A DNA stretch of 64,000 bases from Alkalihalobacillus sp. CinArs1 (GTDB lineage: Bacteria; Bacillota; Bacilli; Bacillales; Guptibacillaceae). Shown here piece by piece: positions 24,643 through 54,312 of this stretch; the stretch's first letter is position 1, and each line of letters begins with the position of its first letter. The notes beneath the pieces are model-generated. The model did not search any database. It was not told the DNA's origin and worked only from the letters and a program-made list of their open reading frames with translations. The DNA is taken from contig NZ_CANDOB010000002.1 of NCBI RefSeq assembly GCF_947387515.1, positions 868,001-932,000 on the forward strand, read 5' to 3'. Made by a program: the position numbers and the translations under genes.

Positions 24643-25269
24643 ATGGAGTGGGGAATGATTATTGATTCTTTAAACGAAGAGACGATAAAAGAATGGCTTA
24701 ACCAGTATGCTGCACTTGGTCCATTGCCAGGCATCCTGCTACCGATGCTAGAAGCAGTGCTCCCGATATTGCCATTGTTTCTTTTTGTGGCCGGTAATGC
24801 TGCAGCCTACGGTTTTTGGTATGGGTCACTTCTTTCATGGTTAGGTGCATCCCTAGGTGCATTGCTCGTTTTTATTGTCGTAAGAAAACTTGCAAGACAG
24901 CGGTTCATGGGTTTGATCACAAGGCATAAGAAGATCGATAAGACGCTAAGGTGGATCGAGCGACATGGGTTTGGCATGGTGTTCCTCTTACTGTGCTTTC
25001 CATTCACACCATCAGCCCTCATCAACGTTGTCGCTGGACTTTCAAATATGAGTATCAGAAGTTTTGTACTAGCTGTTCTTCTTGGAAAAATGGTCATGAT
25101 CGCCATCGTTTCATTCATCGGACATGACGTGTTTTCGTTAATCCATCAACCACTGCAATTGGTGCTGATCGTCCTCGCCATCGGTTTATTATGGGGTGCA
25201 GGGAAGATCATCGAGCTCAAGCTGAATCAGCGACCAAGAAAAACAAGAATGGAAGATCAATCAAGATAA
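24643..25269 (+). CDS. TVP38/TMEM64 (VTT/DedA-like) membrane protein
   Basis: 208 residues with about five hydrophobic segments. The VTT motif region LPLFLFVAGNAAAYGFWYGSLLSWLGASLGA and the later FPFTPSALINVVAGLSNM, with its conserved Phe-x-Pro, identify the TVP38 family. Bacterial relatives belong to the DedA/VTT superfamily linked to lipid scrambling and membrane homeostasis. Two starts are possible (24643, or 24655 with GGAG six bases upstream). Basic C-terminal tail. Confidence 0.82.
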   Translation: MEWGMIIDSLNEETIKEWLNQYAALGPLPGILLPMLEAVLPILPLFLFVAGNAAAYGFWYGSLLSWLGASLGALLVFIVVRKLARQRFMGLITRHKKIDKTLRWIERHGFGMVFLLLCFPFTPSALINVVAGLSNMSIRSFVLAVLLGKMVMIAIVSFIGHDVFSLIHQPLQLVLIVLAIGLLWGAGKIIELKLNQRPRKTRMEDQSR

Positions 25270-25301
25270 GCCATGCCGGTAGCGGCATGGCTTTTGTTTT
25301 G
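25268..25301 (+). terminator. Terminator of the TVP38 gene
   Basis: AAGCCATGCC / GGCATGGCTT stem, then TTGTTTT. Confidence 0.8.
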
Positions 25302-25318
25302 ATGTTAGAGCGGTAATT

Positions 25319-25412
25319 TAGCCAATAAAATTCGATTTTGGCTAATAAAACTTAGATTTGGACAATAAAACATGATTTTAGCTAATAAATAGAGATTTTG
25401 GACAATAACAGG
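25319..25412. repeat. Five tandem 20 bp repeats (GCTAATAAA type)
   Basis: Units start at 25319, 25339, 25359, 25379 and 25399, exactly 20 bp apart; the last is partial. The core is T(A/G)G(C/A)(C/T)AATAAAA and the rest varies. There are no spacers and no reading frame. Confidence 0.8.
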
Positions 25413-25460
25413 TTTGTTTTAGGGTGTACTGCTTATTTCGCAGGAAGCTTTGGTAGAGAT

Positions 25461-25570
25461 ATCAGCGATAATTGGACGGATATCAGCGAAATTTTTGATA
25501 TATCAGCGATATTGATGGTTTTATCAGCGCTTTTTAAAATATATCAGCGAAAATGAGGATTTTATCGGCG
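25461..25570. repeat. Six ATCAGCG repeats spaced 20-21 bp
   Basis: ATCAGCG occurs at 25461, 25482, 25502, 25523 and 25543, and as ATCGGCG at 25564. Spacings are 21, 20, 21, 20 and 21 bp. A preceding AT pair is usual (ATATCAGCG). The family is different from the 20 bp repeats just upstream. Confidence 0.8.
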
Positions 25571-25585
25571 AACTGAGGTTTACAG

Positions 25586-25696
25586 GCTGCGACTCGCAGA
25601 AACTACGCTATTTCACTCTTTCAACTGAACACAAAGAACGTGTTCAATTTCAAGAGTTCCAATAGCTCCGTTTCTAACCGCTCGTCTCCGCTTTTC
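25586..25696. repeat. Hairpin module A (first copy of a 111 bp exact direct repeat)
   Basis: This 111 bp segment recurs without a visible difference at 25950-26060. It folds into a long interrupted hairpin: AGAAAC 25598-25603 with 25670-25675, GCTATT 25607-25612 with 25661-25666, ACTCTT 25615-25620 with 25652-25657, and TGAACAC 25626-25632 with 25640-25646. The apical loop is AAAGAAC. Confidence 0.88.
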
Positions 25697-25819
25697 ATGT
25701 CCAGCTGCGGTGGCCAGGCTCTCGAGACGCTTCAGCATTGTGGTTGAACACAAAAAGCGTGTTCATCCACAACGCTTCCAGCGCTTGTCGAGCCTAAACG
25801 GGCCACCTCCGCTTTTCGG
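25697..25819. repeat. Hairpin module B
   Basis: It starts ATGTCCAGCTGCGG and ends CCGCTTTTCGG. Pairings: GGTGGCC 25709-25715 with 25801-25807, GGCTC 25717-25721 with 25790-25794, TTGTGG 25738-25743 with 25767-25772, and TGAACAC 25745-25751 with 25759-25765. The apical loop is AAAAAGC. The ends resemble modules A and C, while the arms differ. Confidence 0.85.
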
Positions 25820-25942
25820 TATGTCCAGCTGCGGTGGCCAAATACTCCGGTAGTTTCAGAGGAGCGATTGAGACAAAAAGCGTCTCATTCGCTCCTCTTC
25901 CAACTCCCTGCGTATTTAAACGGGCCACCTCCGCTTTTCGCT
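25820..25942. repeat. Hairpin module C
   Basis: Same boundaries as module B (TATGTCCAGCTGCGG ... CCGCTTTTCGC) with new arm sequences. Pairings: GGTGGCC 25833-25839 with 25923-25929, AATAC 25841-25845 with 25912-25916, AGAGGAGCGA 25858-25867 with 25889-25898, and TGAGAC 25869-25874 with 25882-25887. The apical loop AAAAAGC is the same as in B. Confidence 0.85.
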
Positions 25943-26060
25943 ATGTCCAGCTGCGACTCGCAGAAACTACGCTATTTCACTCTTTCAACTGAACACAAAG
26001 AACGTGTTCAATTTCAAGAGTTCCAATAGCTCCGTTTCTAACCGCTCGTCTCCGCTTTTC
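25943..26060. repeat. Hairpin module A' (second copy of module A)
   Basis: It carries the TATGTCCAGCTGCG boundary and then repeats 25586-25696 exactly from 25950, ending four bases before the cotJC stop codon. Modules B, C and A' start 123 bp apart. Confidence 0.88.
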
Positions 26061-26063
26061 GCA

Positions 26064-26633
26064 CTAGAAGTACTTCTTCTTATCCCTCTCTTCCTTCAGA
26101 ATCTCCACAGCTTCTCTAAACCTTTGGGAGTGGACGATTTCTCGTTCTCTTAGGAAGGCGAGGGAGTCGTTTAGGTCTGGGTCGTCGGAGAGGTCGATGA
26201 TCCATTGGTAGGTGGCTCGGGCTTTTTCTTCGGCGGCGATGTCTTCGTAAAGGTCAGCGATCGGGTCGCCTTTTGCTGCGATGTAGCTTGCTGTCCATGG
26301 GACGCCGGCTGCGTTTTGATAAAAGAGTGCTCTGTCGTGGTTTGCGTAGTGCGCGCCGAGTCCAGCTTCTTTCATTTGGTCAGGTGTTGCATCTTTCGTT
26401 AGTTTATAAACCATCGTTGCAATCATTTCGAGATGAGCGAATTCTTCTGTACCGATATCGGTTAGAAGTCCTACGACTTTATCTGGGATCGTGTAACGTT
26501 GATTTAAGTATCGGAGGGCAGCGGCGAGTTCGCCATCTGCGCCTCCGTATTGCTCGATTAGAAACTTCGCAAGCATCGGATTACATGTGCTTACTTTCAC
26601 TGGATATTGAAGCTTTTTTTCATAGACCCACAA
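26064..26633 (-). CDS. cotJC: Spore coat protein CotJC (manganese catalase family)
   Basis: 189 residues from a TTG at 26633, the length I recall for B. subtilis CotJC, beginning MWVYEKKLQYPVKVS. A GTG two codons earlier is too near the AAAGG site. The di-manganese catalase fold residues are visible: Glu in YGGADGELAAALRYLNQRY, Glu/His in IGTEEFAHLEMIATM, and Glu/His in IAAEEKARATYQW and EREIVHSQRFREA. Last gene of cotJABC, made in the mother cell and built into the coat. Its stop codon lies four bases from the hairpin-module array. Confidence 0.93.
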   Translation of the reverse strand: MWVYEKKLQYPVKVSTCNPMLAKFLIEQYGGADGELAAALRYLNQRYTIPDKVVGLLTDIGTEEFAHLEMIATMVYKLTKDATPDQMKEAGLGAHYANHDRALFYQNAAGVPWTASYIAAKGDPIADLYEDIAAEEKARATYQWIIDLSDDPDLNDSLAFLREREIVHSQRFREAVEILKEERDKKKYF

Positions 26634-26653
26634 AAGCACTCATCCTTTCCAAA

Positions 26654-54025: not shown

Positions 54026-54040
54026 CTTCACAAATAAGCT

Positions 54041-54312
54041 GCGATGAAGAGAAGAGTAGATCATGCTATCTTTTTACAGAGAACTCCGGTTGCTGAAAAG
54101 GAGGAAGGATACGTGATCGAACCAAACCTCTGAGCTTTACATCGGATCCGACTGGTGATGGTGTAACGGGAGCTCCCGTTATCGAGATAGGGTATACGCA
54201 ATGTTAAATTGCCGTACCTGATAAGTTCGGTATGGTGACATATCGATAAACTGAGGTGGCACCGCGATACTTCTCGCCCTCAAGACAAAAGTCTTGGGGG
54301 TGAGATTTTTTT
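54041..54312 (+). promoter_or_regulatory. T-box riboswitch, specifier read as CAA (Gln)
   Basis: Stem I base pairs CGATG (54042-54046) with CATCG (54140-54144). It contains the AGTA element (54055-54058), AGAGAACTCCGGTTGCTGAAA and AGGAG distal parts, and the GAAC-CAA-ACC specifier loop. CAA is at 54123-54125. The T-box AGGTGGCACCGCG is at 54254-54266; its TGGC would pair with a tRNA ending GCCA, that is discriminator G, which fits tRNA-Gln. AAC (Asn, two bases on) is the alternative. The terminator is CTCGCCCTCAAGAC (54273-54286) with 54291-54304 and T7; TGAGG/CCTCA can form the antiterminator. Uncharged tRNA should switch on the MFS gene. Confidence 0.9.

Follow-up and report, generated by a model that had tools for sequence, protein, structure and literature searches.

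A tandem array of hairpin repeats beside a cotJC-like gene is one locus of an interspersed repeat family of the Bacillales

Organization of the locus

The window analyzed here is a stretch of 64,000 nucleotides of Alkalihalobacillus sp. CinArs1 (contig NZ_CANDOB010000002.1, positions 868,001 to 932,000); all positions are counted from its first letter. Positions 25582-26060 are occupied by four head-to-tail imperfect hairpins (A, B, C, and A') of 115-118 bp each, and the genes flanking them are convergent (Table 1), as the original prediction had described. The array sits 3' of the terminator-like hairpin of a VTT/DedA-type gene and faces a gene of the Mn-catalase family, which we take to be cotJC-like given that CotJC is a Mn-catalase-like protein. 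Its closeness to the end of the latter gene was correctly noted, with 3 nt separating the array from the stop codon (26064-26066). The letters of this gap vary, while its length is 3 nt in nearly all species compared.

Table 1 Features at the array locus (positions within the window; R1, covariance model of the unit)
Feature	Position	Strand	Evidence
VTT/DedA-type membrane protein gene, upstream, same strand as array	24643..25269	+	ORF; Pfam VTT_dom E 1.1e-23
Terminator-like hairpin of VTT/DedA-type gene, GCCATGCCGG...CGGCATGGCTTTTG	25270..25301	+	Direct sequence reading
Unit A (type A)	25582..25696	+	R1 102.7 bits, E 6.7e-31
Spacer ATG between units A and B	25697..25699	+	
Unit B (type B)	25700..25817	+	R1 121.5 bits, E 4.7e-37
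Spacer GGTATG between units B and C	25818..25823	+	
Unit C (type C, GAGAC/GTCTC apical stem)	25824..25939	+	R1 106.4 bits, E 4.3e-32
Spacer GCTATG between units C and A'	25940..25945	+	
Unit A' (type A), last of array, 3' end = CTCCGCTTTTC	25946..26060	+	R1 109.4 bits, E 4.4e-33
3-nt gap, array 3' end to stop codon of convergent gene	26061..26063	.	
cotJC-like gene (Mn-catalase family), convergent neighbor	26064..26639	-	ORF; Pfam Mn_catalase E 6.6e-77

On recheck, the reported 111-bp identity of A and A' was exact (25586-25696 and 25950-26060); the first approximately 5 nt of unit A are diverged and the rest is identical to A'. Both quoted arm pairs were also correct: that of unit C (25858-25867 with 25889-25898) lies in an inverted repeat of 94% identity (25858-25874/25882-25898), and that of unit B (25738-25743 with 25767-25772) was seen in the fold.

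Several other repeats and motifs were observed nearby. A tandem motif of roughly 20 bp, TTTTGGCTAATAAAA/TTTGGACAATAAA, occurs four times at 25316-25409, in the stretch that separates the array from the upstream gene, and similar motifs lie upstream of arrays at C1:1487933, C1:1505806, and C2:1256005. Spaced TATCAGCGA repeats with a period of about 20 bp follow at 25458-25570, and clusters of the related TATCCGCGAAA / TCGCGGAAT were found 5' of congener arrays (L185, L187, L191, L193, L197). No Rfam 15 family matched the array; the only match at E ≤ 1 was to FsrA, outside the array in the upstream terminator region (25267-25342, minus strand), and at 22 bits versus a gathering threshold of 80 it is probably due to chance. 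Elsewhere in the window, a T-box leader was found on the plus strand (54035-54284, 105 bits).

Folding and unit architecture

The whole array, as RNA, folds beyond its shuffles (z -11.4). Single modules gave z-scores of -4.7 to -8.2 as RNA and -3.3 to -6.6 as DNA relative to shuffles, with unit B at -59.6 kcal/mol as RNA (z -7.0; z -5.9 as DNA) and unit C at z -8.2 as RNA. Each unit is one long interrupted hairpin, in the family mostly of 110-119 nt, with near-invariant ends (TCYAGCTSC... at the 5' and ...YTYCGCTTTTC at the 3' side). An apical loop (ACAAARRNCGT), an internal loop (TTC/TCC), a TAAAC bulge, and two mismatches near the hairpin base are likewise near-invariant; the arms vary and are compensated.

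Units are mosaics of nested stem modules, in which one inner stem can be found with differing outer stems. Swaps of these modules usually take both arms. A smaller number of units are chimeras with arms that do not pair, the junction being close to the apical loop. Such chimeric units, with unpaired arms of different types, were seen as the first unit of L226 (894-1008), the first unit of L228, and the second unit of L204. In some arrays, almost all units bear an end mark peculiar to that array, for example TCCGCATTTC in genomes G009 and G005.

Occurrence across genomes

By blastn, 34 matches were found in the genome itself and matches were present in 13 of 13 congeners. Similar hairpins in other Bacillaceae had been mentioned in the original prediction, and a covariance-model search for further copies had been suggested; the model (R1; 116 positions, 41 pairs) recovered copies in abundance, there and in relatives. 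The genome itself holds 45 copies at 18 sites and the 13 congeners hold 54-103 each, so that the 14 genomes of the genus span 45-103. The family was present in 60 of 81 genomes of an order-wide sample, often with at least 20-45 copies per positive genome. At the phylum level, 2 of 199 genomes matched, both of them from this order, and no copy was found in any sampled genome outside it. A DNA-pattern scan of named genomes, confirmed using R1, identified copies in Pseudalkalibacillus, Metabacillus, Priestia, Mesobacillus, Neobacillus, Rossellomorea, Planococcus, Lysinibacillus, Domibacillus, Jeotgalibacillus, Halobacillus, Bhargavaea, and others. Copies of P. hwajinpoensis scored with R1 like those of the congener G006 and were identical to them at one locus, so the genus of the window is probably Pseudalkalibacillus (now Guptibacillus in NCBI). 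Plasmid and phage records gave no match to the repeat.

An assembly artefact or a purely local tandem duplication would account for the 111-bp identity of A and A'. We give this explanation practically no weight for the array, and it is refuted for the family, since orthologous arrays occupy the same junction in the separately assembled 14 genomes of the genus and copies occur throughout the order.

Literature searches by repeat sequence and for Bacillales hairpin repeats returned nothing relevant. The family is thus apparently new both to Rfam and to the searchable literature.

Compensatory changes in the stems

Covariation was scored in sets of 29, 142, and 120 distinct copies. Paired cells amounted to 89-91% and the covariation score was 0.48-0.67 across the three sets, two of whose alignments were fitted to the model and so biased towards it (alignment A2 was not). 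Scores were 0.18-0.19 in shuffled controls and at most 0.15 in slid controls. The proposed covariation check was therefore strongly positive, and the idea that the fold is what is kept or copied gains support from arms that differ and yet stay complementary.

The kind of pairing was examined in columns with at least 80% Watson-Crick pairs. G.T and A.C were equally frequent there (37 each of 4,659 cells), and other mismatches were commoner than either. In the second set G.T and A.C numbered 44 and 51, and in the order-wide set 37 and 72. Double changes of transversion type were at least as many as those of transition type. Since no Rfam families were found in the congener stretches, rRNA served as the wobble control: in 5S and part of 23S rRNA of a congener, counted similarly but on single sequences, G.U made up 15% and 11% and A.C numbered 0 and 1 (G.U:A.C of 5:0 and 20:1). 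The most similar, and hence youngest, pairs of copies differed mostly by single mismatches, and older pairs mostly by compensated double changes.

Because G.T equals A.C, with no excess of wobble pairs, pairing is kept strand-symmetrically, in the manner of a DNA hairpin. On these sequence comparisons it is probably kept as DNA by selection or correction, and constraint on both RNA strands could mimic such wobble-free pairing. A structured RNA, or an mRNA 3'-end element that stabilizes or terminates transcripts of the neighboring genes, would agree with the stable RNA folds and with the many copies that start just past a stop codon, where they would occupy the 3' UTR of the opposite-strand gene. 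We nevertheless judge it very unlikely: the equality of G.T and A.C contrasts with the 11-15% G.U of rRNA, no Rfam match was found, and more than 40% of arrays lack an opposite-strand gene at their 3' end.

Genomic context of the arrays

Placement was analyzed for 161 non-redundant arrays, with ORFs called by a simple longest-ORF rule under which single gaps may err (an apparent GroEL stop was missed in L275). Relative to the element's orientation, flanking genes were arranged as ++ (64), +- (44), -- (44), and -+ (9). The expected enrichment at convergent gene ends was thus borne out in comparison with divergent ones (44 versus 9), yet 67% of arrays lie between co-directional genes.

Placement is polar. 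Where an opposite-strand gene lies beyond the 3' end, 66 of 87 arrays had that end at -10 to +6 nt from the gene's stop codon, and a distance of 7-40 nt was never observed. Array 5' ends served as the internal control: beside a same-strand gene, they came this close to the stop codon in 1 of 99 cases (P ~2e-30, only a guide because orthologous sites in several species count repeatedly). The rule held in each subset: 25/28 in the related genomes G007 and G010, 25/34 in the genome itself and its relatives, and 21/31 in other genera alone (control 1/33). Abutment was read directly from the sequence at cotJC, atpD, and atpG. No sequence-specific target was seen by eye at the 3' junction.

On the sense side, a terminator lay between the gene's stop and the array in 84 of 106 cases (15 in shuffled sequences). 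Operon-like spacing without a terminator was found for 25 of 44 antisense (--) but only 10 of 56 sense (++) arrays (P 6e-5). Antisense arrays occur within operons, including the atp operon. The rrn operons carry the repeat in the 23S-5S spacer, as near-identical single units that follow the 23S 3' end at a distance of 5 nt and precede the 5S gene, again in antisense orientation. Single units of this type were noted at about 2201-2316 on the minus strand, with flanks alike, in L352, L353, L356, L362, L372, L374, and L381; the spacer location was verified in L352 and L356, and L087 is a similar case from Neobacillus.

These contexts bear on an earlier suggestion that the array forms a transcript-end structure for both neighbors. 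That suggestion is supported only in part. Abutment to stop codons stood, although it concerns the stops of opposite-strand genes only; arrays are also found in 23S-5S spacers and within the atp operon, and the lack of wobble tolerance speaks against one strand alone acting as RNA.

They also bear on a host-beneficial polar block, in which tandem copies would stop RNA polymerase traveling in the sense direction and so shield a gene on the other strand against antisense transcription, or keep read-through away from a promoter. In keeping with this, the 3' end abuts sites that could be protected (antisense stop codons, or positions mostly <100 nt before starts), CGCTTTTC is retained by 122 of about 150 last units, and the cotJC site is conserved in 14 species. 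The units resemble intrinsic terminators in that a GC-containing hairpin has a run of T's on one side. They differ in their 117-nt length, in lying antisense inside operons, and in the end itself: the tail is UUUUC, with four U's only, and the hairpin base (AGC/GCU) is weak and holds the two conserved mismatches. Furthermore, same-strand upstream genes are usually already terminated (the 84 of 106 above), an RNA terminator would tolerate wobble, and -10 boxes at the 3' side in ++ contexts were not enriched (25 versus 21.8 in shuffled sequences). We therefore regard such a block as unlikely.

Stability of sites and exchange of units

The sites are old. That at cotJC is occupied in 14 of 14 species of the genus, with the 3-nt junction in nearly all; in G008, a 5'-truncated unit is all that remains. 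At atpG-atpD, about half of the 14 species carry the repeat, always at the stop codon.

Units, in turn, are replaced. The related complete genomes G007 and G010 share 22 pairs of non-rrn arrays with common flanks, and in 10 of these 22 the last unit was closest to a non-orthologous unit. Orthologous flanks are thus kept while units match elsewhere, which means stable sites with exchanged units; copying, which the identity of A and A' had suggested, is in this sense upheld as copying or exchange between arrays.

Most arrays are preceded by a 5'-truncated unit (37/63 in one set and 48/59 in another), probably because deletions enter from the neutral 5' side and not from the gene-bound 3' side. 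These lead units prompted a model of reverse transcription with 5' truncation, which was rejected because RVT_1 is lacking in 10 of 14 genus genomes; it was detected in four and not in the genome itself. Deletions that start in neutral DNA are a simpler explanation of the ragged 5' side, as exemplified by G008. Polarized growth of arrays at the 3' end was also considered and dropped, as identities between orthologous arrays were equal for first (0.78) and last units (0.80).

Transposase genes and signs of mobility

Neither a recent insertion with target duplication nor a mobilizing enzyme was identified among the arrays and genomes analyzed. With respect to MITE features, unit ends pair imperfectly and junctions, inspected by eye, have no consistent target duplication.

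The original prediction had offered a REP-like element moved in trans and had pointed to a Y1/REP-associated transposase gene. Genes of this kind are present: Y1_Tnp was found in 14 of 14 genus genomes, several of RAYT length, and three Y1 genes tested scored 57-76 bits against the NCBIfam REP-associated tyrosine transposase (cut-off 80). Selection on the hairpin at the DNA level would fit recognition of a single-stranded hairpin by such a Y1 (HUH) enzyme and copying in trans, as would the lean of arrays to the leading strand (45:18). No linkage to the repeat was found, however. Searches of 24 loci around Y1/RAYT-like genes of the genus yielded no unit (best E 0.81), whereas RAYT genes are described as REP-flanked (PMC2817692). 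Six element-bearing genomes (G026, G027, G057, G068, G080, G085) had no Y1_Tnp match, where past loss is possible; G027 has 29 copies on 2 contigs and G080 at least 45. Presence of the repeat and presence of Y1 showed no visible association, and the GTAG/CGTC tag of REPs is absent. Mobilization by a RAYT or Y1 enzyme of the genus thus appears quite improbable, and membership in the REP/RAYT system was not supported.

The orientation bias is not decisive, because it may only follow gene-strand bias. A strong replichore bias was discarded as a candidate property, the overall 45:18 being moderate.

As separate observations, the repeat does not flank the RAYT-like Y1 genes L246:2862-3575, L247:2844-3416, and L252:2679-3296. 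One RAYT-like family lies beside a dprA-like gene and another beside a D-isomer 2-hydroxyacid dehydrogenase-like gene.

Discussion

Our preferred reading, to which we assign a probability of roughly one half (0.52), is that the array is one locus of an order-wide, non-autonomous, recombining family of interspersed DNA hairpin repeats that is tolerated where transcription in its own sense is not interrupted. Recognition or copying of the unit, in replication or by some enzyme, would take place on a DNA hairpin that is single-stranded or extruded, and arm mismatches would be purged or compensated on both strands because the unit is handled in this form. Arrays would change mainly as units recombine homologously at their conserved ends and loop, with new sites arising rarely. 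Judging from its sequence, the sense strand, a hairpin with TTTT at its end, may impede RNA polymerase. Copies would then persist only where own-sense transcription stays uninterrupted, such as just past an opposite-strand stop, antisense in operons, or in the gap from a terminator to the next gene. Because the array sites look old, we infer mobility from copy number and the variably filled atpG-atpD site; a conserved function tied to fixed sites would leave much the same picture.

A bolder proposal is that the repeat represents a novel class of mobile DNA defined by its structure: a DNA hairpin of 117 nt with freely changing paired arms, its nested stem modules swapped between fixed arrays and its 3' end set antisense behind stop codons by a hairpin-specific enzyme that is neither Y1/RAYT nor a reverse transcriptase. 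We advance this tentatively, as a possibility on the doubtful side.

Imperfect hairpins of 60-150 nt are known from attC sites and VCRs, which have conserved ends and unpaired bases, have variable but complementary arms, and are recognized as folded single-stranded DNA. The present units share the conserved ends, the unpaired bases, and the variable yet complementary arms. Unlike attC sites, they have no RYYYAAC/GTTRRRY core at their ends as read and no gene cassettes between them. A strand preference is described for attC sites (PMC6393395).

REPs are 20-40 bp long and carry a GTAG or CGTC tag, and G.T pairs are often observed in their stems; GTAG repeats were reported from Proteobacteria, Cyanobacteria, Chloroflexi, and PVC, with RAYT genes flanked by REPs (PMC3733652, PMC2817692). 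The family resembles REP, BIME, and REPIN elements in forming intergenic, high-copy, clustered imperfect palindromes with compensated stems, mostly outside genes. It differs in its size of approximately 117 bp, its head-to-tail arrays, and its lack of a GTAG/CGTC tag, of wobble, and of Y1 linkage.

BOX, RUP, and SPRITE of streptococci are, as excerpted from their description, interspersed, predicted to fold, and over-represented between convergent genes, and BOX has a tandem internal module, with about half of its insertions core (PMC3049150). The present units are alike in being interspersed Firmicutes repeats predicted to fold. By that excerpted description they are set apart from BOX, whose architecture is boxA-boxB-boxC; the excerpt notes neither wobble-free covariation nor polar abutment to stop codons (PMC3049150). 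The repeat bcr1 is described as specific to the B. cereus group in the title of a paper cited in PMC2267715; compared by description only, it and related B. cereus-group repeats are alike in size, interspersion, and predicted secondary structure. Most likely, the family is REP/BOX-like in kind and not a member of the REPs.

The family is an abundant repeat spanning the Bacillales, apparently without an Rfam entry or a description in the searchable literature. Covariation without wobble makes it a clear example of a palindrome that is probably maintained at the DNA level, and the near-exact rule relating the 3' end to stop codons is a testable positional law for any mechanism to explain. Well-studied transcription units are affected, as copies are present in 23S-5S spacers, within the atp operon, and after the Mn-catalase-like gene of a cotJ operon. 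A longer related hairpin, TCTAGCTCCAGCGCCTACCCCCTCGAG...GGTGACCAAGGCGCTTACGCTTTTC, was found downstream of atpD in L213, which suggests that more sub-families exist that are weakly scored by R1.
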